From the NCBI RefSeq assembly GCF_016283395.1, contig NZ_JAEEMU010000040.1:62001-126000 (forward strand): 64,000 nucleotides of DNA, written 5' to 3'. Positions 1-35,189 of this stretch are shown piece after piece. Positions within the stretch are counted from its first letter, which is position 1; each line of letters starts with the position of its first letter. Source of the DNA: Ruminococcus sp. Lineage in GTDB: Bacteria; Bacillota_A; Clostridia; Oscillospirales; Ruminococcaceae. The notes beneath the pieces are model-generated. The model had not been told where the DNA came from. It ran no database searches and worked only from the letters and a program-made list of their open reading frames with translations. The position numbers were made by a program, and so were the translations under genes.

Positions 1-56
1 TTTCAGCCCCCTTATGAACGGTGATTTTGTTCGGGACTGAAAGGAGGTCATATTTT

Positions 57-1776: not shown

Positions 1777-1810
1777 AACTACCGTTCAATAACTAAATAC
1801 AGGAGGAATC

Positions 1811-2948: not shown

Positions 2949-2961
2949 CGGAGGTAAATAT

Positions 2962-3927
2962 ATGTATAACGATATCAAACTTGAAAAGGGTCTTTACAAT
3001 CTCAGCGGAAAGTCATTCACAGCTGCTCTTGAGGAGCTTGACCCATCCTCGGCATACGCAGGTACTCCCCTTGAAAAGCTTGACGCTTTCGAGAGACAGC
3101 TCAAACGCTTCAATATCAGGATAAACGGTCAGGACTGCGACTGCGTTGAGAAGTTCTTCTCGACTACGGAAACAGCCGTACTCTTCCCCGAATTCGTTAC
3201 ACGCTGCATAAGAAAGGGCTTCGATGAAACTGTTCTCCGATCTGTTTGTGCTGCCAAGACAGTATGTGCAAGCGGTCAGTACCTGGGCTGCGTACTCGAT
3301 GACACCGAGACATACACAACTACAGCTCAGACAGAAACTCTCCCCGAGGCTAAGGTCACAGAAAGCACTACAGCTACTGTGCTTGAAAAGTTCGGCAGAC
3401 TCATCAGTGCTTCCTATGAGGCTATCCGTCAGCAGAGACTCGATGTTTTCGGTGTTATGCTCAGAAGCGTGGGTGCAAGACTTGCTGTGTCGGTGGTAAA
3501 AAAGGCTGTTGCCGTACTTGAAGCAGATACTACTCCTATCACTACTTCCGCACTCACATACGATGACCTTGCTGCACTTTACGGCGAATTCGACTGCTTC
3601 GACATGACTACTGTCATTGCTTCTCCTGCTGTAGCTTCAAAGATAGCTGCTATGGATCAGCTCAAGGAGTGCTCTGCAAATGCAGACGGCAAGCTCATTC
3701 TCCCATTCGGCTCGGAACTGGTCAAGACTTCGGCTGCCGACAATGATACTATCATAGGTATCGACCGCAATTTCGCACTTGAATTCATCACAAGCACAGA
3801 CCTTATCATGGAGACCGACAAGCTCATCGACCGTCAGCTCGATCAGATGACAGTTTCTATCACCTGCGGTTTCAGAAAGATAACTCCCGATGCAGTTAAG
3901 GTGCTTACTATCACGACCGAAACTTAA
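2962..3927 (+). CDS. Phage major capsid protein, HK97-fold type
   Basis: Probable main head protein, 321 residues. It starts at ATG 2962 behind GGAGGT at 2951-2955; an upstream extension to 2917 overlaps the portal and is not needed. The sequence has features of short capsid proteins of clostridial phages: a charged N-terminal arm, a central helix with LEKFGRLISASYEAIRQQR, an A-domain region predicting a fixed site (TTVIASPAVASKIAAM), and a C-terminal strand set ending VSITCGFRKITPDAV. It sits directly between the portal and protease genes. No separate scaffold gene is seen. The call rests on pattern and position rather than on catalytic residues. Confidence 0.7.
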   Translation: MYNDIKLEKGLYNLSGKSFTAALEELDPSSAYAGTPLEKLDAFERQLKRFNIRINGQDCDCVEKFFSTTETAVLFPEFVTRCIRKGFDETVLRSVCAAKTVCASGQYLGCVLDDTETYTTTAQTETLPEAKVTESTTATVLEKFGRLISASYEAIRQQRLDVFGVMLRSVGARLAVSVVKKAVAVLEADTTPITTSALTYDDLAALYGEFDCFDMTTVIASPAVASKIAAMDQLKECSANADGKLILPFGSELVKTSAADNDTIIGIDRNFALEFITSTDLIMETDKLIDRQLDQMTVSITCGFRKITPDAVKVLTITTET

Positions 3928-3954
3928 TGCGGCATATTCAAAAGATGAAAAGTA

Positions 3955-4058
3955 GGGGCTGATGCCTACATCAGCCCGTAATTATAATGTTCGGGGCGAT
4001 GTAAGCATCGCCCCCTACAAAATCATTATGTTGAGGGCGAGCGGAACTCGTCCCTACA
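3955..4058. repeat. Three small GC-rich hairpins between capsid and protease genes
   Basis: Three separate stem-loops fill the 152-base gap: GGGCTGATG with CATCAGCCC, GGGGCGATG with CATCGCCCC, and GGGCGAG with CTCGTCCC, the last two followed by CTACA or CCTACA. They belong to the dispersed hairpin family seen at many other gene borders in this window. Here they interrupt what would otherwise be a continuous phage operon, which suggests insertion into a cassette that has been resident for a long time. Confidence 0.75.
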
Positions 4059-4079
4059 AATAAACCGAAAGGAGATAAT

Positions 4080-4910
4080 ATGGACAAGTCTATTCTCGAT
4101 AAGATCAATAAATTCACACGCCGTCCCCTTTCTGAGGACGAGTTATACGTATTCTCGGTCATACTCTGCGATAACGATATTGACCGCGACTGTGAACGCT
4201 TCTCGGAAAATGCTCTCGCTACTCTCAGAGAAAAGTTCATCGGCAAGACAGGTATCTTCGACCATGACGCCTCCACAGCCAATCAGAATGCGCGTATCTT
4301 CGATACGGAACTTGTCACCGATGATACACGGCTCACACAGTTCGGCAAGCCATACGTCTGCCTCAAAGCTATGGCGTACATGGTGAGGACTGACGAAAAC
4401 AAGAACCTCATTGCCGAAATTGACGGCGGTATCAAAAAGGAAGTCAGCATTTCCTGCTCCGCAGCAAAGAGGATATGCTCTGTCTGCGGCAATGACAAGA
4501 ATATCTCATCCTGCAATCACGTTAAGGGGAAAAAATACGGCGGCAATATATGCCACACTGTCCTTGATGATATCACGGACGCTTACGAATGGAGCTTCGT
4601 TGCCGTACCTGCTCAGGTAAACGCAGGAGTTACGAAAAAATACAGCGAATCTGATGCCCTAAAGTCGCAGGCTAAGGATATACAGCTCTGCGATGCGGAG
4701 CTTCGCCGCGATATCCGCAAGGCTGCCTTTTTTGCAGGCGGCAGGGCTGCGGCTGATATAGCTTCCGTATCGGCTGCAAATATGAATACTCAGCAGCTTA
4801 TCGCGCTTCGCAGATCATTTGAGCTGCAGTGCAGAAAAACAAAAACTGAGGTACAGCTTGAATTCGGTGCAGAGTCGGACGATACCGCAGACAGCTTTAC
4901 CATGAGATAA
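4080..4910 (+). CDS. Probable phage prohead protease (U35/HK97 type)
   Basis: Likely maturation protease of the phage head, 276 residues. The N-terminal half has the family plan: a DRDCERFSENALATL segment, a histidine in GIFDHDAS (about residue 60) and a serine in KKEVSISCSA (about 123), which would match the catalytic His and Ser. A cysteine/histidine cluster follows (CSVCG, SSCNH, GGNICH, about residues 130-160), as in several clostridial phage proteases, then AYEWSFVAVPAQ. The C-terminal 80 residues are helical and may serve as scaffold. The gene follows rather than precedes the capsid gene, which is less usual. It starts at ATG 4080 behind AAAGGAG. Confidence 0.65.
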   Translation: MDKSILDKINKFTRRPLSEDELYVFSVILCDNDIDRDCERFSENALATLREKFIGKTGIFDHDASTANQNARIFDTELVTDDTRLTQFGKPYVCLKAMAYMVRTDENKNLIAEIDGGIKKEVSISCSAAKRICSVCGNDKNISSCNHVKGKKYGGNICHTVLDDITDAYEWSFVAVPAQVNAGVTKKYSESDALKSQAKDIQLCDAELRRDIRKAAFFAGGRAAADIASVSAANMNTQQLIALRRSFELQCRKTKTEVQLEFGAESDDTADSFTMR

Positions 4911-4919
4911 GGAGAAAGT

Positions 4920-5288
4920 ATGGATATTCAGAAAATAACCGAGATATTCGAGCTTATGACAGGTGAGGAAAACAGCACCGAATACATGAAGCTCATATAT
5001 CTTTCCATGCGTGAGGTGGACGATATCCTCAGACCAAATGCGGATATAAGCGACCTGAGACTTTGCTTTCTCTGCGCTGCACTGGCTTTTTACAGGCTAC
5101 AGCAGATACTTGCTGCAAGAGAAAGAGCAGATGTTACCTATGCAGGAAAGGTGCTGAAGGAGTCGCAGAATACTGCCTGCGAGTACGCAAAGCAGCTCCT
5201 TAAAGACTACTTGCAGATGTGTAAGAGCCTTATCACTGTGGAGACTTTCGTTTTCGGCAGCTTTTCAAGCGGAGAGGAGATGTTATAA
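4920..5288 (+). CDS. Phage head-tail connector-like protein
   Basis: Small helical protein of 122 residues with no recognisable motif. Size, helical content and position directly after capsid and protease fit a head-completion or connector protein. ATG 4920 follows GGAGAAAG, and the stop overlaps the next ATG by one base (TAATG), so the two are translationally coupled. The function is inferred from position only. Confidence 0.45.
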   Translation: MDIQKITEIFELMTGEENSTEYMKLIYLSMREVDDILRPNADISDLRLCFLCAALAFYRLQQILAARERADVTYAGKVLKESQNTACEYAKQLLKDYLQMCKSLITVETFVFGSFSSGEEML

Positions 5289-5698
5289 TGCTGCGTGAGA
5301 TAATGAATGATATAATAGACAAGCTTACAGACAGCGGCGTTACAGCCGTTTACAGTGCCTTTGATGCAGTGGATATCGCCAAAAAGGAAAAGGGTATATT
5401 TACCATTGTGGGCATAGACGGTTTTGAGTCCTACTCACCTGTATATTCACAGTTCTATGTTTATATCCCGTTCAGAGCCGATATAGAGATGTGCATTACC
5501 GCTCCAAAGGGAACTTCATCAGATGATATATACCTGTTTTATGATGAAAAAATCGAGCCTGTACTTGCAGATATGTGCGGACTTACCTGCTCGCTGTCGA
5601 AAATGAGTATCAAATTCGACTCGAATATACAGCGGCTCGTCCTCACCGCAAAGCTCTCGGCAAGCGGCATAACAAAAATAGAAAGGAGCAGCCCATGA
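5288..5698 (+). CDS. Phage tail-completion-like protein
   Basis: Protein of 136 residues with an alternating helix and strand pattern (LREIMNDIIDKLTDSGVTAV, then VYIPFRADIEMCITAP). Tail terminator proteins have this size and place, but no diagnostic motif is visible. The start is coupled to the preceding stop and the end overlaps the next start by ATGA. The role is inferred from gene order. Confidence 0.45.
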   Translation: MLREIMNDIIDKLTDSGVTAVYSAFDAVDIAKKEKGIFTIVGIDGFESYSPVYSQFYVYIPFRADIEMCITAPKGTSSDDIYLFYDEKIEPVLADMCGLTCSLSKMSIKFDSNIQRLVLTAKLSASGITKIERSSP

Positions 5699-6084
5699 GT
5701 ATCACGGAACTTACAAAGCATGAAGCTGTACCCGTAAATATAGCCTCAGCCGTTGTCTACTGCGACGGCTTCAAGGCTGTATCCGCAAGAAGCATAAACG
5801 AAGAGTCAACGGCTGACGGCGGAAGCGTGTTCACCAACAATGCAAGCCGCAGTACAAAGCTTACCTTTTCGGGAAGGATATTCGCGGACTATTCCGCAGA
5901 TTTCATCTACAGCTTCAATGCTCTTGTGAAAAGCTCCGCTGCATTTAATGTGGAGTATATGGGGCTTTGTTTCAGAAGCTGTCATCTGCTCTCATACACC
6001 TTTGACAATAAAAAAGGCGACTGGGCAGATGTAACGGTAACGCTAGTAACTGCCGATAATATTATAAGGAGCGATGATACTTGA
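5695..6084 (+). CDS. Phage tail-associated protein, unknown
   Basis: Protein of 129 residues rich in beta strands (KLTFSGRIFADYSADFIYSF, later DWADVTVTLVTADNI). ATG 5695 has AAAGGAG upstream and overlaps the previous stop by four bases; a longer frame back to 5575 is only a shadow. It could be a small tail-tube or baseplate component, since tube proteins are beta-rich and lie near this position, but I do not recognise the family. Confidence 0.45.
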   Translation: MSITELTKHEAVPVNIASAVVYCDGFKAVSARSINEESTADGGSVFTNNASRSTKLTFSGRIFADYSADFIYSFNALVKSSAAFNVEYMGLCFRSCHLLSYTFDNKKGDWADVTVTLVTADNIIRSDDT

Positions 6085-7004
6085 CAGCTGTTCTCAGTAT
6101 AAAAAACAAGGACGGAACTCTCCTCGCCGAGGAGAATATACTTGCGTTCAGTTTCAGAAAGGATATATATACTCCTTACACTTCACTGTCTGCAAGAGTC
6201 CGTACTGCACGAACCAACTTCGATAACGCAGCAGAGGTGCTTCTTGCACTTGACAATACTCTAATTCATCACGGTCTTATTGACAGTCTGAAAATAGAAA
6301 AATCAGGGGGAGAATACTTCCTGAATGTCACGTCAAGAAGCTTTACTTCCCTGCTTTGTCAAAACCAGATAGAGCCCGGACTTAAAATGAACATATCATT
6401 CAATATGCTCATGGACAATTTCTATACCCTGCCCTATGTCACTCACGAAAACAATGCCGATGACAGCAGTTATATCTACGTAAGACCTAATACCTCAATG
6501 TGGGACGCTGCCTCAAATCTTTCGTACAAGCTCCTGGGTACTTATCCTTATATAAGAGCTACAAATACAGTAATGATAAGTGCTTTCCCTGCACCTGCGG
6601 TGTTCGACTTAACGAATACCGATCTGCTCACTTACGGTACCGAGCTTGCCTGCGCACATATCGCCAGTGATTACCATATGGCTGATATCAACGGAAATTA
6701 CGGTACTTTCGACCTTACCGACAGCGATGCGGCTGCACTTAAAATAGTGCGTAATAAATTCTTTGAACTTGATATGCGATTTCTCTATGATCCGCAGCAG
6801 GCTCTGTTATTCCGTGATAAGTATGACTTCCGCGGACAGAAAAGGATATTCTGCTCCTACAGCGGCTATCAGGGCGAGGACCTGTACGACATAGTAAGCT
6901 TCGGAACTGTTTCCGCACAGCGTATAGGCTCTGTCACTATAAAAGGCAGCAGCAAGGGTATTTTTACAGAGGTGGGAGTTTACGTTGATAAATTTCCGCA
7001 CTGA
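6081..7004 (+). CDS. Phage baseplate hub-like (gpD-type) protein
   Basis: Protein of 307 residues that begins with TTG 6081, with AAGGAG 12 bases upstream, overlapping the previous stop. The pattern resembles gpD/gp27-type hub proteins: a short strand-rich start, an FSFRKDIYTPYTSLSARVRT segment, a middle section with SMWDAASNLSYKLLGTYPYI (the usual NMWDVI-like site of hub proteins), and a strand-rich end (GSVTIKGSSKGIFTEVGVYV). If right, it is the last recognisable phage gene, and sheath, tube, tape-measure and lysis genes are missing between or after. Hub assignment is inference from fold-like pattern. Confidence 0.5.
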   Translation: MTAVLSIKNKDGTLLAEENILAFSFRKDIYTPYTSLSARVRTARTNFDNAAEVLLALDNTLIHHGLIDSLKIEKSGGEYFLNVTSRSFTSLLCQNQIEPGLKMNISFNMLMDNFYTLPYVTHENNADDSSYIYVRPNTSMWDAASNLSYKLLGTYPYIRATNTVMISAFPAPAVFDLTNTDLLTYGTELACAHIASDYHMADINGNYGTFDLTDSDAAALKIVRNKFFELDMRFLYDPQQALLFRDKYDFRGQKRIFCSYSGYQGEDLYDIVSFGTVSAQRIGSVTIKGSSKGIFTEVGVYVDKFPH

Positions 7005-7323: not shown

Positions 7324-10119
7324 TTATTTGATAGGCAGCTCTGTCACAAGCTTGAGAAGATACTTCTGTATTGCCTGTGCATCGCCTGTTGTCATGCCGT
7401 CATTGCCTGTAACATCGGCATTTTCAATGCCCTGCTTTGTGATGTGTGTCTTTTCTGTACCGCTCTCGCCGTACTTGTTCGGATTTGCAAGTGCCTGCAT
7501 GATGAGTACTGCATCTGAAAGGTCTACATCACCGTCACAGTTTGCATCGCCTGCTTTGTAATCCTTGCTTGTTGTCTTTGGAGTGGATACAGTCGTAGTT
7601 GCGACCTTAGTTGTAGTAGTAGTTACCTTTGTTGTGGTGGTTGTTGCCTTCTTGGTAGTTGTAGTAGTTGACGGAGTTGAAGGAGCACTGCCCTTTATCT
7701 GTCCGTAAACTATACCACAGCCTACTGTGGACATATACACCTTGCCGAACTCGTCCATATCGCCTACAAGGTAGTTGCCGTTGCCTGTACCGCCGTAGAG
7801 GTGGTCTGTATTGATACATACCCATGTCTTGCCTGCGTCTGTTGAACGGTAGATGCCCTCCTTATCGTCCTTATCGGGCTTGCCGTAGATGAAGAGTGTA
7901 TTCACATCGCCCTTCTTCTCAGGTGCGCCGTAACCGATACACTTTGCGTATGCTACATTTTCAAGATGTTCAACTGTCTTGCCCTTGTCGGAGATGAGAT
8001 ATACGCCGTGATTTGCGCCTGCAAGAGCTACTGTGCCCTTACCCACATATGCGAGGTCGCCTGTGTGCTCGAACTTCCATGTAAGCTCCCAGTTATATGG
8101 GCAGATACGTGTCTCTGTGAATGTTGCGCCGTAATCCTCGCTGACGAAGTAAGAATAGTGAGCTTCGTCATATGTAGGCTCTTTCTTGGACATATCAGAT
8201 GACCAGTACTCATTGTACTGAGCGCCTACAGCGTAAACTATCTTCGGATCTTCGGGATCAACGAGAGAATAAACACCCTTTGTTGCTTTTATGCCTGCGC
8301 AGTCCTTCCATGTTGCGCCCCAGTCGTCGGAGTAGGAAGCTCCGCCCTTGGCACTTGTATTTATAACTCTGTACTTGCCCTTTGAAAGCTCTGTGATAGC
8401 GAGCTTACCGCCTGTGCAGGCAGGCTTGAAGGTCTTCCATGTCTTGCCGCGGTCTAAAGTATAGTAGCCGCTGCCTGTATTATTTCCGTCACCGTTTGCG
8501 GTTCTTGCCCATACGTCTGTATTCTGCGGGCATACTGTGATAGCAGATGTAGAGCCCATATTCGGCTTATACTGTTCAGGTATGCCGTTTACTGTAGTGT
8601 GAACGAAGCCGTCATAGTCGCCGATAGCTGAAAGGTCGAGACCGTCAGCTGTGCTGTAGAAGTCAAGGCTTACGCACTCCTCAACGCCGTCAGGCTGGAA
8701 GTAGAACTGTATGTCTTTTTCGGCCCATGCATTGTCGCAGGCAAATACGCCGTTGCCTGATGTGAGGAGGAGTCTGTCTCCCTCAGCATCTCTTGGGTCG
8801 ATAACGATACTGCTGCCCCAGTGGCAAGCCTTGCCGTATATCCAGTCATAGCCGTTGGTATCAAGCGGAAGTGAAATGAAGCTCTTTACGCCTTTGCCTG
8901 TTGAATAGTCTGTAGGACCTTCACCCGGAGTGATATTCTCCCATGTCTTGCCGCCGTCAGATGAACGGAAGAAGTAATCGCCCCATGCGATAGTACCCTC
9001 ATTCTCAGGTGTGGACGGGTCGTCCTGGACCCACTCTGTTCCGCACCACTGTGCTGACCATATACCGCAGGTACGTGCAAACATCTTGTTAGGGTCGTTC
9101 TTGTCAACCTCGATCATACCGATAGAATTGTCGGAAACAGAAAGCTTTTCAGCTTTTCCCGAAGCGATGTTGTACTTGTATGCACCGCCTGATGCACCTG
9201 CAAATGCAAGTCCGCCGATGTATGTGAAGAAAAGGTTTCCGTTATGGTCACTTGTTATGGAGAGAGGATAGTTTTCGTTAGGAAGTGCCTTTATAGCCTC
9301 GAACTTGTCGTCCTTAACGCTTGCAACATGGATATTAGCCTTTCCTGTTACGGAAGTTCCTACATATACCTTGCCGCCTTCGATATAAACACAGCCGATA
9401 CCGTTCTGCTCGTTGTAGAGCTTAGCAGGCTCTGTACCTCTTACCATATGGTCTGTCCATGACGGATATTTAAGCTCACCTGTGAAAAGTCCGAGAGCGT
9501 CATAGCCCTCAACAGGCTTCCATGACTTACCGCCGTCTGTTGACTTGATAAGTGCCGATTTGCCTGCGGTAACATCGCCGCCTGCATAGATAGTGTCGGG
9601 GTTATCGGGATCAACTGCGATAGGCTCGATACACTCACGTCCGTCGCCGTTTCCGTGTACCTGAATATGCTCTGTAACGTCAACACCTGTAAAGGTCTTG
9701 CCGCCGTCTGTAGTCTTGTATATAACTGTCTTTGCGTTTGAGAAGTATGCACAGCCGCAGAGGAAATAAGCTGTCATATCGTCTTTGGGATCAATAGCGA
9801 TACCCTTACAGCTGAGAAGTCCTCTGTCGTCCTCATTGATGAAACCGAAGAGCTGTACCCATCTCTTCTTGTCATAGTCGTATCTGTACGCACCGCCTAC
9901 GTCCGTACGGAGATACATTTCCTTCTGTCCTGCAACGATGCCGGAAACGAATCCAGCACCGCCCATTTTAAGTGTGTCCCACTCCATTGTCGAAGAGATG
10001 TCTTTTGATGCTGCTGCCTCAGCTGTTCTGCCATATTCCGATGTGCCTAATACGGAAAGGCTTGCTGTACTTATACAAACAGCACAAAGACCTGCCAAAG
10101 TCTTTTTCATTGCTTTCAT
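7324..10119 (-). CDS. GH74 xyloglucanase with C-terminal type I dockerin
   Basis: Exported endo-acting xyloglucan hydrolase of 931 residues. ATG 10119 follows AAAGGAAAG and opens a Sec signal peptide (MKAMKKTLAGLCAVC, hydrophobic core, AEAAA). The GH74 two-propeller region covers about residues 40-800 and shows many Asp-box-like turns (STDGGKSW, SSDGGKTW, STDAGKTW). The catalytic-type aspartates are likely in YLRTDVGGAYRYD (about 73) and in GDYDGFVH. A threonine-rich linker follows, then a dockerin with two calcium-loop repeats (DANCDGDVDLSDAV and ADVTGNDGMTTGDA). The dockerin implies attachment to a cohesin scaffold on the cell surface. It is a single-gene unit with its own promoter. Confidence 0.95.
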   Translation of the reverse strand: MKAMKKTLAGLCAVCISTASLSVLGTSEYGRTAEAAASKDISSTMEWDTLKMGGAGFVSGIVAGQKEMYLRTDVGGAYRYDYDKKRWVQLFGFINEDDRGLLSCKGIAIDPKDDMTAYFLCGCAYFSNAKTVIYKTTDGGKTFTGVDVTEHIQVHGNGDGRECIEPIAVDPDNPDTIYAGGDVTAGKSALIKSTDGGKSWKPVEGYDALGLFTGELKYPSWTDHMVRGTEPAKLYNEQNGIGCVYIEGGKVYVGTSVTGKANIHVASVKDDKFEAIKALPNENYPLSITSDHNGNLFFTYIGGLAFAGASGGAYKYNIASGKAEKLSVSDNSIGMIEVDKNDPNKMFARTCGIWSAQWCGTEWVQDDPSTPENEGTIAWGDYFFRSSDGGKTWENITPGEGPTDYSTGKGVKSFISLPLDTNGYDWIYGKACHWGSSIVIDPRDAEGDRLLLTSGNGVFACDNAWAEKDIQFYFQPDGVEECVSLDFYSTADGLDLSAIGDYDGFVHTTVNGIPEQYKPNMGSTSAITVCPQNTDVWARTANGDGNNTGSGYYTLDRGKTWKTFKPACTGGKLAITELSKGKYRVINTSAKGGASYSDDWGATWKDCAGIKATKGVYSLVDPEDPKIVYAVGAQYNEYWSSDMSKKEPTYDEAHYSYFVSEDYGATFTETRICPYNWELTWKFEHTGDLAYVGKGTVALAGANHGVYLISDKGKTVEHLENVAYAKCIGYGAPEKKGDVNTLFIYGKPDKDDKEGIYRSTDAGKTWVCINTDHLYGGTGNGNYLVGDMDEFGKVYMSTVGCGIVYGQIKGSAPSTPSTTTTTKKATTTTTKVTTTTTKVATTTVSTPKTTSKDYKAGDANCDGDVDLSDAVLIMQALANPNKYGESGTEKTHITKQGIENADVTGNDGMTTGDAQAIQKYLLKLVTELPIK

Positions 10120-10180
10120 TTGTTTTCTTTCCTTTCTGTTTATGTATTGAAAATCTTTTTCACGTTTACTTTTCGACTTC

Positions 10181-10209
10181 ATTTTATCATTTCAAAGCCT
10201 CAGTGTCAA
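10181..10209 (-). promoter_or_regulatory. Sigma-A promoter of the GH74 gene
   Basis: On the minus strand TTGACA and TAAAAT stand 17 bases apart, about 60 bases before the start codon at 10119. Only the fourth position of the -10 hexamer is off consensus. Confidence 0.7.
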
Positions 10210-15060: not shown

Positions 15061-15789
15061 TTATATCGCTTCGATGGCTTTTTCAAGTATCGTATGGTCG
15101 AAGCCTGCTTCGCCCTGTGAATTTATGACCAGTACGAAATCATCATCTATCTTTCTTGCATAGTATACCAGCTCCAAGCTAAGCTGCTCAAGAACTATTG
15201 TCTCTTTTGTGTATTCCATGCCGCTGATAGTTATTTTTTCGGGAGCTGATACTTTTATATCTTCCGTTTCATTAAATTCTATCCGATCTTCCATGAACTC
15301 CTCTACAGTGACATTTTCCTTTTCGGGATACATGAGCTTTGTGTTACTGTACTGAAAAACATAGGTAGTATCTGTACTGTTGGCTACAAGATCGGTAATG
15401 TGCATTCCCTGCTCCTGCTTTGAACGTTCGTCAAGAGTTGACCACATTTTTTTGAGTTCTTTTTCATTTTCAGCTCTGTCATTCAGTGCTGTATCTTCGG
15501 GAAATGTTACCTTAAAGCCTGCGTATTCGGAAGTGTAGACCTTACCGTTTACAGTTCCGCTTTTGAAGTTAGTCCCCTCGCCTGCGTCCGCAAACTCGGT
15601 AGCTTCTTCTGTAACAGCTTCGGTAGTAGTTACAGTTATCGGCTCAGTCTCTATGGGTTTATAATCATCTACCGTATGAGCTTCCTCTGCGGTAATCTCT
15701 ATCGGCTCGATAGTAGCGGTCTTGTTGCCGCATGATACTGCCGACGCTAACGCGAAAATCACGGTCATGGTCAATGCTGCCTTTTTCAT
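15061..15789 (-). CDS. Lipoprotein, divergent member of the TSEYAGFK family
   Basis: Exported lipoprotein of 242 residues. The signal peptide ends in lipobox SAVSC (Cys about 20), followed by a Thr/Glu-rich spacer and a folded domain from about residue 75. That domain shares GTxFKxGxxNGKVYTSEYAG, the YxxTKLxYPE segment and a C-terminal VLVINSQGEA strand with the lipoprotein at 16682-17689 and with the anti-sigma ectodomain at 32225-33349, but at much lower identity. Function is unknown; the family looks like a surface sensor or binding domain. A sigma-A promoter precedes it. Confidence 0.75.
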   Translation of the reverse strand: MKKAALTMTVIFALASAVSCGNKTATIEPIEITAEEAHTVDDYKPIETEPITVTTTEAVTEEATEFADAGEGTNFKSGTVNGKVYTSEYAGFKVTFPEDTALNDRAENEKELKKMWSTLDERSKQEQGMHITDLVANSTDTTYVFQYSNTKLMYPEKENVTVEEFMEDRIEFNETEDIKVSAPEKITISGMEYTKETIVLEQLSLELVYYARKIDDDFVLVINSQGEAGFDHTILEKAIEAI

Positions 15790-16681: not shown

Positions 16682-17689
16682 TCATACTGCTTCAAATCTG
16701 CCTGCGAAGTCATTCTCGTCAGCAACTGCGCTGCCGCTTGCTAAGATCTCTACCATAAAGTTTTCGTCTACTCTTCTTACATATACATTTTTGAGGTAGC
16801 CGTTGCTCTCGGTCCTCATCATATAATAGTCCTTGCCGCCAAGTGTTACTATCTCGGGGCCGCTTACATATGTATATACAGTGCCTGCGAGACCGCTTTC
16901 GAGGTAGTCGTTGAGGAAGCTCTCCTCGGACATATTAGGTGTATCAGGATATCTGAGCTTTGTATTGATAAACTTTACTTCTACTCTGCCCTCTGCGTTG
17001 GCATATGTTCCCACAGCATCTGAAATGCCTGTGAAATATACCTTTTTCTCTTCATCTGTCATAACTCTTGCAGGCATATAGTAATAAGTGTAGAGGTCAT
17101 CTTCGTTAAGGAAAGATGTGTCTGCTGGTGCTGTGAACTTAAAGCCTGCATACTCAGATGTATAGACATTGCCGTTTGAAACGCCCTTTCTGAAAGCTGT
17201 TCCCTCTGCTGCGGCTGCGTCAAGTCTGCCGCTTTCGATAGTTCCGACAGCAGCGGTAGTAGTGGTTGTAGTCTGCGGCTTTGCTGTTGTCTTGACAGTA
17301 GTCTGTGTCTGCTTTGCAGTAGTCTTTGAAGTTGCAGCTACAGTCTTTGCTGTGGTTTTTACTGTGGTCTTTGCAGGCTGAGGCTTCTTGGCAGCGGTCG
17401 TAACTGCCACTCTTACTGCTGTTGTATCAACGCTGTTCACCTTTACAGCGGCTGCTGTTACTGCACTTTCGGTCTTAAATGTCTCTGTGGACTTTTCAGT
17501 ATCGCTCTTTTTCGCAGTTGTCACCTTTTCACTTGCTTTATCAGCTGTTTTTTCAGATGAGGTTATCTCGTAAGATACAGCCTTTATCTCATCAGGCTGC
17601 GATGCCTGATATGTCGTAACGCTTCTTCCGCATGATGTGAGTGCGCAAAGTGAAGCTGCTATTGTTATCATTAAAGTTGACTTTTTCAT
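16682..17689 (-). CDS. Lipoprotein with Thr-rich linker and anti-sigma-type ectodomain
   Basis: Exported lipoprotein of 335 residues. A lipobox (CALTSC, Cys 20) is followed by about 130 residues of Thr/Lys/Ala-rich linker, then a domain from about residue 160 to the end. That domain matches the C-terminal ectodomain of the anti-sigma factor at 32225-33349 nearly residue for residue, including GVSNGNVYTSE, TSFLNEDDLYT, INTKLRYPDTPN, VTLGGKDYYM and ADENDFA. Roughly three quarters of positions are identical by eye. A candidate ECF-type promoter upstream resembles that of the sigma gene. It may be a decoy, a shed form or a partner of the sensor; no enzyme motif is visible. Confidence 0.8.
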   Translation of the reverse strand: MKKSTLMITIAASLCALTSCGRSVTTYQASQPDEIKAVSYEITSSEKTADKASEKVTTAKKSDTEKSTETFKTESAVTAAAVKVNSVDTTAVRVAVTTAAKKPQPAKTTVKTTAKTVAATSKTTAKQTQTTVKTTAKPQTTTTTTAAVGTIESGRLDAAAAEGTAFRKGVSNGNVYTSEYAGFKFTAPADTSFLNEDDLYTYYYMPARVMTDEEKKVYFTGISDAVGTYANAEGRVEVKFINTKLRYPDTPNMSEESFLNDYLESGLAGTVYTYVSGPEIVTLGGKDYYMMRTESNGYLKNVYVRRVDENFMVEILASGSAVADENDFAGRFEAV

Positions 17690-17753: not shown

Positions 17754-17795
17754 CTTTCATCTATAACTATCGTATGTCAAAACGAAAGTGTTACA
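17754..17795 (-). promoter_or_regulatory. Candidate ECF sigma promoter of the TSEYAGFK lipoprotein
   Basis: On the minus strand TGTAAC (17790-17795) is followed after 17 bases by CGA (17770-17772). The 42-base block matches that before the ECF sigma gene (33965-34006) at 28 positions without gaps, ending in a shared ATGAAAG. No sigma-A consensus is seen at the same place. Inference from two sequences only. Confidence 0.45.
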
Positions 17796-20696: not shown

Positions 20697-20900
20697 TCAT
20701 TCCTCAAAGGAAAAGAGTTCCTCGACTGTTGTGCCGAATACTTTCGCAATATCCATTGCAAGCTTCAGGGACGGATTGTACAGTCCCTTTTCAAGTCGGA
20801 TTATGGTCTCGCGGCGGACTCCCACAAGGTCTGCAAGCTCTCCCTGCTTCATGTCGTGCTTTGCACGATATTCTTTAAGTTTTGTTTTTAGCTCGGACAT
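20697..20900 (-). CDS. XRE-family repressor of the membrane-protein operon
   Basis: Small Cro/CI-type DNA-binding protein of 67 residues, a single helix-turn-helix domain ([20 protein letters not shown], then [20 protein letters not shown]). This subtype is commonly encoded beside small multi-span membrane proteins. It is the last gene of a five-gene unit; ATG 20900 lies inside the end of the preceding gene, 5 bases after GGAGGA. The three palindromic sites at 22587-22670 around the operon promoter are its likely operators, which would make the unit self-repressed. Confidence 0.88.
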
Positions 20901-21321
20901 CATCTTCCTCCATATCTTTTGCAGACGGTGCGTCAAAGCACGTAAACAGAAAGCTTCTGAGTGCTATTGCTCCCATGACTGTTATCCAGCAGAAATCCGA
21001 GCATATTAGTCCTTTGTATAGGTAGTCGTTTGCAAAAACTGCTGCAAACAGCACTGTAAGCACAAGGAAAAGCGTAATCTTGTTGGCTCTTGCAAGGTTA
21101 TACTGAACCATTTCGTCCTTTTTCTCCAGCTTGTAGAAGCGTGACTGTACGAAAAGCTGCACTGCCGCAAACAACGCCATGCCTATGAGTATCGAAAGCT
21201 TGTCACCGTATGCCTTGCCCTTTATATAACTGAATACATACAGGATTATCGGTGTGAGTGCTATGACCATTACGATAGTATGAAAATTATAGTACGAAAA
21301 TTTATTATTCTTGTTTTTCAT
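20875..21321 (-). CDS. Four-span membrane protein, DUF2178-like, paralog 4
   Basis: Protein of 148 residues with four hydrophobic segments arranged in two pairs. Between the pairs is the family motif [18 protein letters not shown], and after the last segment [11 protein letters not shown]. The tail differs from its relatives because the gene end overlaps the XRE gene by 26 bases. It is the fourth in a row of four related genes. The function is unknown; such proteins next to XRE regulators are frequent in Firmicutes. Confidence 0.75.
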
Positions 21322-21323
21322 TA

Positions 21324-21713
21324 TTATTCCTCCTCAGCCTTTGGTGTTCTGTCAAAGAACAGGAACAGAATACTTCTCAATAGTATTGCAGACAGCGCAG
21401 CAAATACATATACATCGCCTGCAAACAGCGCTTTGTTTGCGGAATTCTGACCAACAATGCTTAGCACAAACAAGGCAGCTATGACAGCAATAAGAGTTAT
21501 CCCGTTAGCCCTGCCGAGGTTTAGCCTTGTAAGTTCATCTTTCTTTTCATATGGTCCGCCAAACTTGCCCACAAGGGTTATATCAGCTAAAGCTATAACA
21601 ATTGTGACCCACTTTTTATTCGGGAAAAAATCACACGCAAAATAAGCCAGCATTACACCTAATGTAACTATGATAGTGATTATATGGGAGTTGCGGTAAT
21701 TATTCTTTTTCAT
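21324..21713 (-). CDS. Four-span membrane protein, DUF2178-like, paralog 3
   Basis: Protein of 129 residues starting MKKNNYRNSHIITII at ATG 21713, one base after the previous stop. It has four membrane segments with KKDELTRLNLGRANGITL between the pairs and the conserved ending LLRSILFLFFDRTPKAEEE. It is closest to paralog 4. A frame extending to 21908 is a shadow of the preceding gene. Confidence 0.75.
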   Translation of the reverse strand: MKKNNYRNSHIITIIVTLGVMLAYFACDFFPNKKWVTIVIALADITLVGKFGGPYEKKDELTRLNLGRANGITLIAVIAALFVLSIVGQNSANKALFAGDVYVFAALSAILLRSILFLFFDRTPKAEEE

Positions 21714-21714
21714 A

Positions 21715-22170
21715 TCATTCTTCCTCCTCAGCCTTTGGTGTTCTGTCCAGCCAGAGAAAAACAATATTCTTTGCTGCAAAAAATACTCCGCACAAAAAGA
21801 CAGCAAACATACACACATCACTGCCCTCGATGCTGTAATATTCAAAATGCCTGTGATTTCCGTGCAAATGCATGAAAATGCCGACAAGCACTGCTGCGCA
21901 AAGCTCAACTTTTACTGCGATATCTGTGGCTTTCAGCATAAGTTCACGGGAAAGCTCATCACTTGGCTGCTTTTTGTACTTCGCTGACATAACGCAAAGT
22001 AAAACTATTACGACGATAACAAGCGGAGACAGCACGTTGATAATATAATGAAATACTCTCGTGTGGTATATCTTTTCAAGCATTCCGCAGATAAACATTA
22101 TTATCATCACCAGAGACGATACGAATTCTGATACAGCCTGCGCTTTCTGGCTCAATACTCTTTTTTTCAT
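21715..22170 (-). CDS. Four-span membrane protein, DUF2178-like, paralog 2
   Basis: Protein of 151 residues and the most divergent of the four. The middle motif is reduced to SDELSRELMLKATDIAVK, and the ending is NIVFLWLDRTPKAEEEE. The region around residues 95-110 has a His-rich loop (MHLHGNHRHFEYY), absent from the others, that might bind metal. The stop is one base from the next start, indicating coupled translation. Confidence 0.72.
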   Translation of the reverse strand: MKKRVLSQKAQAVSEFVSSLVMIIMFICGMLEKIYHTRVFHYIINVLSPLVIVVIVLLCVMSAKYKKQPSDELSRELMLKATDIAVKVELCAAVLVGIFMHLHGNHRHFEYYSIEGSDVCMFAVFLCGVFFAAKNIVFLWLDRTPKAEEEE

Positions 22171-22185
22171 ATTAATTTTCCCTTT

Positions 22186-22569
22186 TTATTCTTCCTCTGC
22201 TGCTTTAGGTGTCATATCAAATATAAGGAAAAGCAGACTTCTGAGTGCGACAGCTCCTAATATCACAACAAGGAACGCTGTTGCGGATATAGCGTGATAA
22301 CGGGCTTTAAGTCCGAAATATACAAGTGCGCCTATGAGTGCCCAGAATGAGAATTTTGTCGCCTTTGCCATGTTTTCCTTTACAAGCTCGTCCTCTTTCT
22401 CGGACTGTCCGTCACATATCAGCGTGAATGCGATACATACCCACATTATCCACTCTGACCAGCCGCCGAGTATAAGTCCGCCCGCTATAATGACAACTGC
22501 TGCGATGACGGTTGCTATATGTGTGGTTCTGAGTGTAACGATTTTCTTTTTGTTAGTTTTAGTGTTCAT
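22186..22569 (-). CDS. Four-span membrane protein, DUF2178-like, paralog 1 (first gene of operon)
   Basis: Protein of 127 residues. ATG 22569 follows AAGGAGGAA. Four membrane segments, the motif KEDELVKENMAKATKFSFW between the pairs, and the ending ALRSLLFLIFDMTPKAAEEE. It is preceded by a consensus sigma-A promoter embedded in three palindromes. The four proteins share layout and both motifs but are otherwise well diverged, so the duplications are old. Possible roles are membrane stress response or bacteriocin immunity; neither is shown. Confidence 0.75.
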   Translation of the reverse strand: MNTKTNKKKIVTLRTTHIATVIAAVVIIAGGLILGGWSEWIMWVCIAFTLICDGQSEKEDELVKENMAKATKFSFWALIGALVYFGLKARYHAISATAFLVVILGAVALRSLLFLIFDMTPKAAEEE

Positions 22570-22586
22570 AGTAATTCCTCCTTGGT

Positions 22587-22670
22587 GTGATGTGTTTGTC
22601 ACTTTCTGTGATAATTATATCACTCGTATATACGGTTGTCAATAGAAAAAGTGATAAATTTATCACTTTT
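22587..22670. promoter_or_regulatory. Three phased operator palindromes (GTGATA-N4-TATCAC)
   Basis: Site A 22651-22666 is GTGATA-AATT-TATCAC within a perfect 24-base palindrome (22647-22670). Site B 22608-22623 is GTGATA-ATTA-TATCAC. Site C 22587-22602 is GTGATG-TGTT-TGTCAC, a weaker version. Starts are 21 and 43 bases apart, that is close to two and four helical turns, so all face the same side. A sits just upstream of -35, B covers -10, C is downstream. The encoded XRE protein is the likely ligand. Confidence 0.75.
22614..22642 (-). promoter_or_regulatory. Consensus sigma-A promoter of the membrane-protein/XRE operon
   Basis: Minus-strand TTGACA and TATAAT, both perfect, with exactly 17 bases between. 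The -10 lies inside the middle operator, so repressor binding would block polymerase directly. Confidence 0.85.
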
Positions 22671-31172: not shown

Positions 31173-31829
31173 TCAGCCCCAGACGGGCTTTACATATATC
31201 TTAGCCGAAAAAACATCGGGCTTGTCTGAAAGCTTGGCGATGTCCTCGGGATATACCGTATACTTCACGGGAAGTCCTGTGAGCCTTGAAGTCTCTTCAG
31301 CAAAGCTTCGTGACTGTTCTATTATCTCAAGACTTGTCTCGCATCCGAGATTGGTATTGTTGATGATAGCGGTATGCTTCATACGTGCAGCCGCCTCTAT
31401 CTCATACATCAGCTTTGTTACCTCTTCCGCTGTATTGGTAAGGTATCTGCGCTGATTTATGACGTAATACATCTCGATACTGTCCTTGAACTGCTCAAGA
31501 TCATCGGCATAGCGTCCAAGTGCAACAGCACCTGCGTCGTCGCCGCCTACGTCTATTATAAGGCAGTCCTCGTCCATAGCAAGCTCAACTACATCAAACT
31601 GTATCGACGGGATATCGAGATTGCTCCTTGCAAAATCGGGAGCGATGAGCCTTATGCCCTTTTCCTCGAAAAGATCGCGGAAATCCGCTGTTCGGAAATA
31701 AGGATTTACTATGTCAAGATCGACTATGGCAGCAGTTTTGCCCTCAGCTGCGGCTTTAACCGCAAGATTTACCGAGAAATTGGTCTTTCCGCTTCCGTAG
31801 TGACCTGTGATTATCTTAATATTCTTCAT
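31173..31829 (-). CDS. ParA/MinD-like P-loop ATPase, unknown function
   Basis: Protein of 218 residues with a GHYGSGKTNFSVNLA P-loop (residues 8-22), the deviant lysine absent, and switch motifs VDLDIVNPYFRTAD and LIIDVGGDDAGA. It resembles small SIMIBI-class ATPases annotated near 2-oxoacid oxidoreductase operons, where a role in Fe-S or cofactor assembly has been guessed. ATG 31829 follows AAGAGGA; the frame back to 31916 lacks a ribosome site. Confidence 0.75.
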   Translation of the reverse strand: MKNIKIITGHYGSGKTNFSVNLAVKAAAEGKTAAIVDLDIVNPYFRTADFRDLFEEKGIRLIAPDFARSNLDIPSIQFDVVELAMDEDCLIIDVGGDDAGAVALGRYADDLEQFKDSIEMYYVINQRRYLTNTAEEVTKLMYEIEAAARMKHTAIINNTNLGCETSLEIIEQSRSFAEETSRLTGLPVKYTVYPEDIAKLSDKPDVFSAKIYVKPVWG

Positions 31830-31944
31830 AAATATCCTCTTGGCTTGTTTGTGAAAAATCCTACAACCTATATTATACCACTTTAAATAATCAATTGCAA
31901 GTGGAATTTTTAACATTCAGCGATATGATTTTTGTGAAACAGGC

Positions 31945-32183: not shown

Positions 32184-32224
32184 GACAAGCTGCGGGGCGG
32201 ATATTATCCGCCCCATTATTTTTA

Positions 32225-33349
32225 TCATACTGCTTCAAATCTTTTTGCAAAATCATTCTCGTCAGCGATCGCACTTCCGCTTGCAGAGATTTTTATGATA
32301 AAGTTTTCGTCTATCCTTCTTACATATATATTTTGGAAGTAGCCGTCGTCCTCAATCCTTATCATATAATAGTCCTTGCCGCCGAGTGTTACCAAGTCAG
32401 GGCCGCTTACATATGAATAAACAGTATCGGTAAGACCGTTTTCAATATAGTCGTTCAGATAACTTTTCTCAGATATATTTGGTGTATCAGGATATCTGAG
32501 TTTTGTATTGATAAAACTTACATCCATTCCGCCTTCTGCATTGGCGTATGTTACGACAGCATCATCAATGCTTGTGAAATAAACATTTCTTTCTTCCTCA
32601 GTCATAAATCTTGTAGGCATAACATAATGGGTGTAGAGGTCATCTTCATTAAGGAAAGATGTTCCTGTTGGAGCTGTGAACTTAAAGCCCGCAAACTCAG
32701 ATGTATAAACATTTCCGTTTGAAACGCCCCTCTTGAAAGCAGTTCCTTCTGCTGCTGCGGCTTCATCAAGTCTGCCGCTGTCTGTTTTTTGTGCAGCAGT
32801 TGTTGTAGTCTGCGGCTTGGCTGTAGTCTTTTCAGTGGTCTGTGTCTGCATTGCAGCAGCATTTGAAGATGTAGTTACTGGCTTTGCTGTGGTTTTTACT
32901 GTTGTCTTTGCAGGCTGTGTCTTCCTGGCAGCTGTAGTCACTGCAACCTTTACCGTTGTTGTTTCTGTGCTCATCTTGTCTGTTGTGACAGCTGTTACCG
33001 CCGGAGTGATTCCTCCTCCGTTGGAAAGGCTGCCGTTTTTGTTCAAAAGTAAAACGCTGCCGATGACAGCTCCTGTAACGAGAACCAGTGAAGCTGCTGT
33101 TATGAGAGGTGTGAGCCACACAGGTCTCTTTACGCGTTCAACTCCGCTGACTGAATCCGTATCGTGATCTATATTGTTATCTTTCTTTGTCCTTTCTATT
33201 TCTTCCTTTTTCATTTTGTAGTTCCTTTCGCTCACTGCGAGCAGCTTTTCAAACTGCTCATCGTCGATCTTCGGGCTCATATCCGTAAAATCTTCCATAA
33301 GCTCGTCCTCTGCATTTTCAAATGTATCAAACAGATCTATTTTTTTCAC
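32225..33349 (-). CDS. Membrane-spanning anti-sigma factor with Thr-rich linker and TSEYAGFK ectodomain
   Basis: Protein of 374 residues. The first 75 residues are acidic, helical and cytoplasmic (FENAEDELMEDFTDMSPKID), as expected for sigma binding; one membrane segment follows at about 80-102 (PLITAASLVLVTGAVIGSVL). Outside the cell come about 85 residues of Thr/Lys/Ala-rich linker and a 165-residue ectodomain almost duplicated in the lipoprotein at 16682-17689. Layout resembles RsgI-type sensors of cellulolytic clostridia but without a known carbohydrate module. GTG 33349 has AAAGGAGGAG upstream and lies 13 bases after the sigma gene. Anti-sigma role is inferred from layout and pairing. 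Confidence 0.78.
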   Translation of the reverse strand: MKKIDLFDTFENAEDELMEDFTDMSPKIDDEQFEKLLAVSERNYKMKKEEIERTKKDNNIDHDTDSVSGVERVKRPVWLTPLITAASLVLVTGAVIGSVLLLNKNGSLSNGGGITPAVTAVTTDKMSTETTTVKVAVTTAARKTQPAKTTVKTTAKPVTTSSNAAAMQTQTTEKTTAKPQTTTTAAQKTDSGRLDEAAAAEGTAFKRGVSNGNVYTSEFAGFKFTAPTGTSFLNEDDLYTHYVMPTRFMTEEERNVYFTSIDDAVVTYANAEGGMDVSFINTKLRYPDTPNISEKSYLNDYIENGLTDTVYSYVSGPDLVTLGGKDYYMIRIEDDGYFQNIYVRRIDENFIIKISASGSAIADENDFAKRFEAV

Positions 33350-33362
33350 AGCTGCTCCTCCT

Positions 33363-33929
33363 TTACTTTGTGATACCGACTTCGGCAAGCTTGACGCGAA
33401 GCTTTTCCATTGCTCTCGTACATCGCGAGCGGACGGACGATGCCGTCATTGATACTGTTTTTGCTATCTCCGATGATTTGCGGTTATAGTAGAATTTCTG
33501 TATCAGTATAGTGGTGTCAGGTTCGCCGAGTTCCTTTATCTTCTGAAGAAGGATCCTGCGGAGTTCCGAACTGTCAACGCGCTCGTCAACGCTGAAATCA
33601 GAAACAAGCTCTGCCATATCCTCTTCATCTGTATATACTTTATGGCTGTTTGCAGCGGAAAGTCTTCTGAAACGGTCTATGGCGTTGTGTTTAGCCACAG
33701 TTCCGATGTATCCCTTGATATCGTTTACGTATTTTTCGTTATACTCGAACTTTATGAATATATCCGTGAACACATCACAGAAGCACTCCTCTATATCTTC
33801 CTTAGTGCCGCAGCTCCTGAGCTTATTGAATACTATGGCATAAACATATCTGCCGTACTCTTTCATCAGCTGTCTGTGACATTCAGCAGGGGAAGTATCG
33901 AGAAGCTCTTTCAGCTCGTTCCCTGTCAT
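33363..33929 (-). CDS. ECF-type RNA polymerase sigma factor
   Basis: Sigma-70 family protein of 188 residues with region 2 (YVYAIVFNKL, CFCDVFTDIFIKFE, YIGTVAKHNAIDRFRRLSA) and region 4 (ILIQKFYYNRKSSEIAKTVS followed by MTASSVRSRCTRAMEKL). ATG 33929 lies 7 bases after AAGGAGGG; ATG 33935 touches it. It is encoded with a membrane anti-sigma factor and a candidate self-recognised promoter. Targets probably include the lipoprotein at 16682-17689, which has a like promoter. Confidence 0.93.
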   Translation of the reverse strand: MTGNELKELLDTSPAECHRQLMKEYGRYVYAIVFNKLRSCGTKEDIEECFCDVFTDIFIKFEYNEKYVNDIKGYIGTVAKHNAIDRFRRLSAANSHKVYTDEEDMAELVSDFSVDERVDSSELRRILLQKIKELGEPDTTILIQKFYYNRKSSEIAKTVSMTASSVRSRCTRAMEKLRVKLAEVGITK

Positions 33930-33964
33930 GTTCATCCCTCCTTAACTATATATTAAAGATCGAC

Positions 33965-34006
33965 CTTTCATAAACAACATTCGCAGTGAAAAATGAAAAT
34001 GCTGCA
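33965..34006 (-). promoter_or_regulatory. Candidate ECF promoter of the sigma/anti-sigma operon
   Basis: Minus-strand TGCAGC (34001-34006), 17 bases, CGA (33981-33983). It aligns without gaps with 17754-17795; common positions include TTTC-TTTT in the spacer and GTT with ATGAAAG downstream. Suggests autoregulation; to be tested. Confidence 0.45.
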
Positions 34007-34102: not shown

Positions 34103-34339
34103 TTACTCAGCGTCTGTATTCTTTTCAATGTAGTTTACGATGTCTCCTACAGTCTTGATCTCTTCTACAGCCTCATCAGGGATAGAGATGTCAAATTCGT
34201 CCTCGATAGTTGTGATAAGATCAACAACGTCGAGTGAATCTGCGCCGAGATCGTCCTGGATATTTGAATCAAGGCTAACCTCATCTGCCTCTACGCTGAG
34301 CTGTTCTGCAATAATATCTTTGAGTTTTTCAAAAATCAT
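34103..34339 (-). CDS. acpP: Acyl carrier protein
   Basis: Small acidic protein of 78 residues that carries growing acyl chains on phosphopantetheine attached to the serine in [11 protein letters not shown] (about residue 38). ATG 34339 follows TGGAGGA; the frame up to 34444 overlaps accA and is a shadow. It is the last gene of the fatty-acid operon, directly before the terminator. Confidence 0.96.
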
Positions 34340-34382
34340 TACAAGGTCCTCCATTTTTTCTTTATTTTTCATCAAAATCGGT

Positions 34383-35189
34383 TCATTCAATGAACGCTCC
34401 GATTTTTCTAAATTTAGTATAGCGTTCTTTAAGCAAAACGTCAATATCTTTTTTACATTTTTCAGGGATTTTCTGTGACAAATATTCGTGTATATTTTCT
34501 GAAATTTTGTCTAAATCGTTATGTGCGCCTCCGAGAGGCTCTTCGATTATGGCTTCGGCAACCCCTAAACGCACCATATCCTCTGCGGTTATCTTCATTA
34601 TCTCGCTTGCTTCCTGCTCGCGTGAAGCGTCCTTCCAGAGTATACTTGCAAAGCCGCGGGGCGATAATACGGAGTATTCTGCGTTCTCGAGCATTGCAAG
34701 CTCATCGCATACGCCGAGAGCAAGTGCGCCGCCGCTTCCGCCTTCGCCGAGTACTATTGATATTATAGGTGTGCGGAGAGTCATAAACTCTGCGATATTC
34801 TTTGCGATAGCTTCACCCTGTCCGCGCTCCTCGGCTGCAACTCCGCAGAATGCACCAGGAGTATCTATGAAGCATATAACAGGTCTGTGGAATTTTTCTG
34901 CCTGACGAGCTATCCTGAGTGCCTTTCTGTAGCCCTCGGGGTGCGGCATTGCAAAGTTGCAGGCTTTATTCTCGTTGATATCCCTGCCCTTTACCTCTGC
35001 GATTATGGTAACAGGCTCACCGTCAAGTCTTGCAAGTCCGCCGATGATAGCTCTGTCATCGCCGAAAAGACGGTCGCCGTGCATTTCGTACCAGTCTGTG
35101 AATACCTGTGGTATATAGTCCTTTATCGTAGGTCTGCCCTTGGTATGAATGAGCTGAAGGCGTTCCCACGCTGTTCTCTTTTCTTCCAT
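34383..35189 (-). CDS. accA: Acetyl-CoA carboxylase carboxyltransferase, alpha subunit
   Basis: Transfers the carboxyl group from biotin to acetyl-CoA, giving malonyl-CoA; 268 residues. Signature segments are [59 protein letters not shown] and [16 protein letters not shown] (oxyanion site). ATG 35189 is spaced 7 bases from GGAGG, better than GTG 35195 which is one base away. It lacks the long N-terminal helix of E. coli AccA, as in other Firmicutes. Confidence 0.95.

Follow-up and report, generated by a model that had tools for sequence, protein, structure and literature searches.

A Ruminococcus ECF sigma/anti-sigma pair with exchangeable outer domains and a module that recurs in surface lipoproteins

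The system described here is an extracytoplasmic function (ECF) sigma factor and its putative membrane anti-sigma factor, encoded by adjoining genes in a 64,000-nucleotide stretch of Ruminococcus sp. (contig NZ_JAEEMU010000040.1, positions 62,001 to 126,000; hereafter the window, whose own numbering is used throughout). Its closest described counterparts are the SigI/RsgI pairs of Acetivibrio (Clostridium) thermocellum and relatives. According to the part of a 2024 survey that we draw on, Acetivibrio-type species carry 7-14 RsgI factors each, and a dedicated RsgI suite is used only by cellulosome makers of this type (PMC11557425). SigI is described as lacking sigma region 4 in the section of PMC6056542 cited here, and RsgI is reported in a portion of PMC12203970 to undergo intramembrane cleavage. 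In the Bacillus system, as outlined in excerpts of PMC4183432, RsiV acts as a receptor anti-sigma for lysozyme and is destroyed by regulated intramembrane proteolysis. Comparison of the window with related genomes reveals a conserved inner anti-sigma half, an outer half that is replaced from genome to genome, and a promoter class common to the sigma operon and to genes for surface and secreted proteins.

Like SigI/RsgI, the window family comprises many paralogous pairs per genome with differing outer modules, and a promoter block is likewise common to the sigma operon and a dockerin gene. Several dockerin-controlling pairs are a mark of SigI/RsgI; here the nearest genome has about 15-19 pairs, and the block stands before a dockerin-type gene in nine genomes, as read from sequence alone. 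However, unlike SigI as portrayed in the cited part of PMC6056542, the window sigma factor has region 4; its anti-sigma matches no Pfam family and has no recognised RsgI inner domain, and the outer modules are not recognised carbohydrate-binding modules (CBMs) or hydrolase modules. The window system appears to work like SigI/RsgI; because region 4 is present and the anti-sigma falls in no Pfam family, it is not counted as a member, and the RsgI comparison drawn in an earlier, sequence-only reading of this DNA holds as an analogy. Sigma V/RsiV offers a second likeness, an ECF sigma factor held by a receptor anti-sigma (a function the window protein would share; PMC4183432, in part), but the window anti-sigma lacks any Pfam match and has many paralogs with unlike outer domains. 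Among the matches listed in a search of open-access papers, none is seen from its title and start of abstract to describe a comparable family of ECF/anti-sigma pairs in Ruminococcus, subscription literature being outside the scope of the search.

The product of 33363..33929 (minus strand; ATG at 33929, 6 nucleotides after GGAGGG; alternative ATG at 33935) is, by its profile matches, an ECF sigma factor: TIGR02937 (sigma70-ECF superfamily) scores 70.8 bits against a cut-off of 42.9, Pfam Sigma70_r4 lies above its cut-off (24.6 vs 24.1) and Sigma70_r2 under its own (20.7, cut-off 24), and SigW, SigK and SigL are matched in the PDB. The anti-sigma gene (32225..33349, minus strand; GTG start at 33349, stop at 32225; 374 residues) follows after 13 nucleotides, an equal arrangement being seen in paralogs of the nearest genome, where homologous inner halves adjoin the family sigma genes. 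With this adjacent one-helix membrane protein, the ECF sigma/anti-sigma logic of the sequence-only reading is borne out, as is its description of the anti-sigma as having an acidic start, one helix and a Thr-rich linker. Syntenic and sibling alignments delimit a putative sigma-binding inner segment (residues 1-81; 33107..33349, minus strand) that ends near the motif VSGVERVKRPVW and has 13 acidic and 4 basic residues in its first 40. A simple hydropathy window gives one membrane helix (residues 82-101; 33047..33106, minus strand) and no second one; beyond it lie the linker, with 27 Thr in 89 residues (residues 108-196; 32762..33028, minus strand), and an outer domain of about 178 residues (197-374; 32228..32761, minus strand). 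Pfam returned no family for the anti-sigma at E up to 1, neither the RsgI inner domain nor RseA being matched. Zinc-type class I anti-sigma factors (ZAS) carry a Cys/His zinc motif in the inner domain; residues 1-81 contain no Cys, and this mark is absent from the window protein.

We find that the putative receptor half of this locus is exchanged between relatives while its surroundings stay in place, a feature absent from the sequence-only reading. Both flanks are conserved in 11 genomes, with the gene order accD-accA-acpP, sigma, anti-sigma, cooC, ferredoxin, vorB; the sample holds one genome per species, so that relatives here are close species or strains, the contig of genome G023 begins inside accA, and in a twelfth genome, G097, the sequence stops short of the downstream flank. 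The anchors in the window are acpP, placed by synteny comparison (34103..34444, minus strand), and a gene for a cooC-like ATPase (31173..31916, minus strand), with ferredoxin and vorB beyond it (names assigned by eye). Across the 11 syntenic loci, protein identity is 78-98% for the sigma factor and 50-87% for residues 1-117 of the anti-sigma. At the DNA level, the sigma gene of the window is covered to 100% (76-97% identity) and cooC to 77-100% (75-97%), and the outer domain to 0% in 10 of the 11, the exception being G001, the nearest genome compared (41% of sampled 31-mers in common with the window). Homology with the other genomes ends before or within the Thr-rich linker, which places the exchange point at or inside it.

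The replacing outer parts comprise three other module types in four arrangements: one common to G027 and G089 (66% identity), a second module in G068, G097 and G012, a third module followed by the second in G015, G009, G100 and G023, and a tandem of the third in G002. A domain of the window's type reappears at the syntenic locus of G043 and also in G021, where no synteny was seen over the stretch compared; in both it is just 34% identical to that of the window. In a tree of the domain, the anti-sigma copies of the window and G001 stand beside a lipoprotein of the window, lipoprotein 1 (support 100/100), and those of G021 and G043 beside a lipoprotein of G089 (100/98). The four anti-sigma copies occupy two places, each inside lipoproteins, and well-supported branches force two label changes. 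The simplest account would be that this anti-sigma captured a lipoprotein domain on two separate occasions, each time joined through the repetitive linker; from the tree we infer that capture ran from lipoprotein gene to anti-sigma. We note that the G089 relative, the closest to the G021 and G043 outer domains, is one of four PsbP-domain lipoprotein genes in tandem (L147, G089:C51).

Lipoprotein 1 (16682..17689, minus strand; 335 residues) consists of a lipobox, a Thr-rich linker and an outer domain like that of the anti-sigma, with 75.7% identity over 185 residues. Lipoprotein 2 (15061..15789, minus strand; 242 residues) holds a more distant copy, 32-34% identical (32.0% over 194 residues) and far above chance (E 1e-18 to 2e-22, depending on the filter). 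Both recurrences had been noticed in the sequence-only reading. The two proteins have a predicted signal peptide and lipobox, read by eye as LTSC and AVSC at residues 17-20, with Cys at residue 20. The anti-sigma and lipoprotein 1 genes match in 635 of 782 bases (81%; segment 32193..32965 of the minus strand by alignment). This match begins in the Thr linker, passes the stop codon and reaches into the terminator, and therefore a whole 3' gene segment is shared, including a terminator hairpin, GGGGCGGATATTATCCGCCCC, identified by sequence and alignment at 32194..32214 and found again in lipoprotein 1. The captured receptor would thus have come from a lipoprotein gene together with its linker and terminator.

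In the comparison of the window with G001 (L108; 32000-32900), the outer domain and the region downstream are almost identical. The counts of differing bases are 2 of 537 for the outer domain, 18 of 321 for inner half plus helix, 15 of 573 for the sigma gene and 1 of 342 for acpP. The low divergence of the outer domain is suggestive of a recent cassette exchange; we do not use it as proof, because that of acpP is equally low.

The window pair belongs, by homology, to a family with about 15-19 pairs in G001. In that genome, 15 sigma relatives have an identity of about 40% or above, and 21 fall within E 1e-6. A 12-sequence profile matches no fewer than 19 anti-sigma inner halves there at E up to 1e-5, with 19 of 50 candidates having been scored. 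All 23 frames examined downstream of G001 sigma genes, some of them distant sigmas, have one predicted membrane helix, and in 15 of the 23 the GVE or GVD of a VxGVExYxRPxW-like motif stands just before it (by eye); one weak sigma match has no one-helix frame downstream. Across the genus, at least 106 of 125 genomes have sigma matches with E no higher than 1e-25 (1 to 21 per genome), and in 98 of 125 the inner half is matched with E no higher than 0.01. The sigma counts and the profile-based inner-half counts are lower bounds, only part of the candidates having been scored in large genomes. The inner-half profile was also compared with 245 genomes sampled across the order; among the candidates scored, matches came solely from the two genomes that belong to this genus.

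Outer parts differ among the siblings as well. Ten were scanned, with one match each to PASTA, SecDF_P1_head, dockerin and, weakly, MucB_RseB (E 0.0013, under cut-off), and none in the remaining six; a LolA/RseB-like label for these modules rests on that single weak match and was discarded. The sibling with a PASTA domain (L220, G001:C18) suggests cell-wall sensing by one family member. At L231 (G001:C11), a distant ECF sigma adjoins a one-helix protein with a type I dockerin at its end, and this anti-sigma-like protein could dock into the cellulosome.

Alignment of 16 sequences reveals a nearly invariant block upstream of the sigma genes, composed of TGCAGCA, about 16 bases, CGAATGTT and TTTATGAAAGGTCGATCTT. 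In the window, upstream alignments place the ECF-like promoter of the sigma operon at 33956..34006 (minus strand), as TGCAGCA-N16-CGAATGTT followed by conserved GTTTATGAAAGGTCGATCTT. The -35 element is TGCAGCA in most near orthologs and of an AACA type in several siblings; autoregulatory promoters of the ECF kind are marked by an AAC-type -35 and a T-rich stretch, and the block is predicted to be one of them. At 33956-33972 and in the G001 paralogs, the sequence downstream of the -10, TATGAAAGGTCGATCTT, covers the first transcribed bases and is nearly invariant and near-palindromic (AAGGTCGATCTT), and ATGAAAG or a near form is found again in many sibling sigma leaders. No score close to gathering level came from an Rfam scan of the sigma leader.

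When GAATGTTNTTTATGAAAGGTCGA was searched in the 125 genomes with up to 2 mismatches, 49 sites were found in 31 genomes and none with the reversed control. Forty lie upstream of family sigma genes (28 by tblastn, 12 by adjacency to sigma matches). The other nine, which are all of the non-sigma sites, lie upstream of homologs of one secreted protein in nine genomes. This protein combines a signal peptide with one or two repeats, whose start is of the GxWKYQ type, and with a dockerin; the dockerin is visible by eye in eight of the nine (the G021 copy is shortened), and Dockerin_1 scores 26.1 bits against a cut-off of 22.9 in the one scanned. Of the 20 anti-sigmas compared, three, siblings from G001, G002 and G015, have an outer domain homologous to the WKYQ repeat (30-57% identity, best E 4e-31). 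The G001 sibling with this outer domain has a sigma factor 72% identical and the block with one mismatch. Because the block precedes both the sibling sigma gene and the dockerin gene of like module, a receptor and a cellulosome-type product with a common module are predicted to carry one promoter.

Similarly, a promoter of the sigma class, AACACTTTCGTTTTGACATACGATAGTTATAGATGAAAG, stands upstream of lipoprotein 1 (17754..17792, minus strand), supported by a strict pattern and by a 50-mer comparison. The strict pattern, A[ACG]CA[CT]TT-N24..26-ATGAAAG, has two matches in the window, one at the sigma operon and one at 17792 before lipoprotein 1, against 0.05 expected from 20 simulated sequences. 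The link between sensor and lipoprotein 1 proposed earlier thus gains a promoter class in common. Lipoprotein 2, for which no such promoter was found in the window, was rejected as a member of the circuit. In the loci collected, a biased set, the strict promoter has 46 distinct sites, namely 30 at sigma genes, 8 at PsbP-domain lipoprotein genes, 7 at WKYQ-dockerin genes and 1 inside a frame of 479 residues (L012), the lone site without an assigned gene. Within 260 nucleotides of the assumed start it is present at none of the four anti-sigma genes, all of which are located behind their sigma. Lipoproteins of 486-495 residues in G106, G016 and G015 join a sibling anti-sigma module (37-59% identity) to a window-type domain (41-45%); the class stands 85 nucleotides before one start, counted from the first promoter base, and 317 and 383 before the other two, without a gene-sized forward frame between. 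At L151 (G010:C1:287926-289686), the gene immediately upstream of a family sigma/anti-sigma pair encodes a PsbP-domain lipoprotein and has the promoter class.

We consider it rather probable that these observations reflect a genus-specific, ECF-based and RsgI-like mode of surface sensing, in which exchangeable receptors mirror co-regulated surface proteins. The family, its topology, the exchange, the common modules and the common promoter class are established here at the level of sequence, and from them the following sequence of events can be proposed: (I) the conserved inner half would hold the sigma factor, (II) the exchangeable outer half would serve as a receptor module for an outside ligand, with a glycan of the plant wall or cell surface, or else a surface protein, as the probable candidates, (III) the anti-sigma would be cut in its membrane helix, by analogy with RsgI and RsiV, and (IV) the freed sigma factor would transcribe its own operon and surface or secreted proteins with matching modules. 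For lipoprotein 1, the driving factor would be this sigma rather than a sibling. The recurrence of the outer domain in a surface protein with the same promoter class points to sensing of whatever the cell's own surface proteins handle.

Several observations weigh against this proposal. The strict pattern was devised after the upstream region of lipoprotein 1 had been seen; for this reason an untuned comparison was run, in which the plain 50-base sigma promoter was set against all 127,900 positions and gave the lipoprotein 1 promoter as the best non-self match, leading by a single base (30 vs 29 of 50). The exact sigma block is not there upstream of lipoprotein 1, which has the general class alone. 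Since its -10 differs (CGATAG vs CGAATG in the sigma promoter) and its GAAAGCAC start resembles the promoters of sigma factors 47-50% identical (G071, G076), a sibling sigma rather than this one may drive lipoprotein 1. The strict promoter lies within 260 nucleotides of the assumed start in 6 of 65 domain-family lipoproteins and in none of 34 glycoside hydrolase family 3 (GH3) enzymes or 5 serine hydrolases. The outer domains of 17 of the 20 anti-sigmas compared have no match to the dockerin protein at E 1e-3. Neither the window anti-sigma nor 10 related anti-sigmas contain a Pfam CBM or hydrolase, so that no carbohydrate-binding family is recognised. Apart from these points, the lipoprotein 1-type block itself has 7 sites in 7 of the 125 genomes (reversed control, 1): lipoprotein 1 of G001 itself, two upstream of family sigmas, and four inside or opposite long frames, which look like chance and were set aside. 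A chance-like match to the lipoprotein 1 promoter lies inside an 898-residue, secreted-looking frame with a dockerin-like segment (L288, G068:C51).

The fold of the outer domain, an alpha/beta structure, is PsbP-like on present evidence, namely an AlphaFold2 model and weak PsbP_2 matches. The model, built from 36 sequences, is confident (predicted local distance difference test, pLDDT, 91.2; predicted template modelling score, pTM, 0.89). PsbP/Mog1-like folds have the order hairpin-alpha-beta-alpha-beta(4)-alpha, and the order of helices and strands in the model is similar. No Pfam or NCBIfam match lies above cut-off, in agreement with the earlier description of the ectodomain as novel. PsbP_2 is the commonest weak Pfam match (13 of 36 members, best E 0.0014; three scores shown are 11.6-18.5 bits, under the cut-off of 27), and one relative is labelled 'PsbP C-terminal domain-containing' in a database. 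A profile search of the PDB gave matches that were short or repeat-driven, with no convincing relative. Against the assignment, hhalign with five PsbP_2 proteins returned a short motif match alone, at 3% probability, which leaves the PsbP-like fold unsecured by sequence, and for this reason the name is provisional.

Within the genus, 53 of the 125 genomes carry the domain. For the tree, 124 distinct domain sequences were reduced to 108 by dropping any that scored below 40 bits, had fewer than 150 residues or lay within another; the 108 copies comprise 65 from lipoproteins, 34 from GH3 enzymes, 5 from serine hydrolases and 4 from anti-sigmas; labels were set by frame length or motif, and a few broken frames may be mislabelled. 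In the GH3 enzymes and serine hydrolases the domain forms the C-terminal end, and a Pfam check of eight representatives confirmed GH3 in four and a beta-lactamase-type hydrolase in two. Because of this spread over genomes and protein types, the domain is best regarded as a general surface module of these Ruminococcus bacteria. The sequence-only reading, in which the domain was special to the sensor and its soluble copies, is not supported as worded on this point. It had also named membership of a known enzyme or adhesin family without regulatory link as a finding that would count against it, and with the domain on enzymes this holds by half. That reading is consequently supported in part, for its ECF logic, its RsgI analogy and the lipoprotein 1 link, and not for the exclusivity of the domain.

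The same spread feeds the main deflating alternative, namely mere reuse: the PsbP-like module would be generic on ruminococcal surface proteins and have reached the anti-sigma when Thr-rich linkers happened to recombine, with no functional bond between lipoprotein 1 and this pair. A module carried by lipoproteins, GH3 enzymes and serine hydrolases in so many genomes, and a repetitive linker that is a likely site of recombination, would fit such reuse. However, lipoprotein 1 has one of just two strict promoter matches in the window, and the match of sensor and product is repeated by the dockerin case, at nine of nine non-sigma sites of the 125-genome search; we consider mere reuse unlikely. Titration feedback, the circuit suggested in the sequence-only reading, takes the promoter link at face value: a lipoprotein made from the same promoter class would vie for the ligand with the outer domain of the anti-sigma, thereby shutting down the response. 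The 76% identity of the domains, their promoter class in common and the strict promoter on 6 of 65 domain-family lipoproteins are consistent with it, but the promoter is absent from lipoprotein 2 and most lipoproteins, and what mirrors the receptor among the siblings is a secreted dockerin protein, no obvious decoy. Titration or ligand competition is, in our view, improbable and is not favoured over a sensor and an effector that bind the same thing.

RseB contacts RseA in the sigma E system, where the anti-sigma has an extracytoplasmic partner protein. A likeness to that system lies in the weak MucB_RseB match of one sibling outer domain, but in the window family the modules sit on the anti-sigma itself, and RseA is not matched. 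A co-sensor role, in which the lipoprotein contacts the anti-sigma outer domain, like with like or in the RseB-RseA manner, and reports the state of the surface or envelope, would draw on the homologous domains of both partners and on the PASTA module and weak MucB_RseB match among siblings, but appears very unlikely, since unrelated kinds of domain occupy the locus in relatives and a fixed protein-protein contact would resist such replacement unless the partners move together.

Elsewhere in the window, positions 21-7004 hold phage-like genes (terminase, portal, capsid and tail-like, by eye) that mark a prophage edge. Adjoining the end of the phage-like genes, 7324-10182 encodes a secreted protein resembling a GH74 enzyme with a dockerin (by eye). 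On the minus strand, 20875-22602 contains four adjoining genes for small related membrane proteins, three of them with a PKAxEEE-type tail.

RsgI suites are assigned to Acetivibrio-type makers only, in the part of the survey cited (PMC11557425), and the regulation of ruminococcal cellulosomes and surface lipoproteins accordingly looks open. A searchable promoter block, a dockerin-type gene in nine genomes and swapped cassettes make this regulation a testable question. In addition, nature provides here a clean example of receptors being exchanged while the signalling chassis stays constant. As a broader and more tentative proposal, to which we give somewhat less than even weight, Ruminococcus may have evolved multi-receptor ECF sensing independently of SigI/RsgI, with up to about twenty receptors per genome, whose outer-domain cassettes would be swapped between relatives and copied from the surface and cellulosomal products of the sigma factors, each receptor sampling what its products bind.

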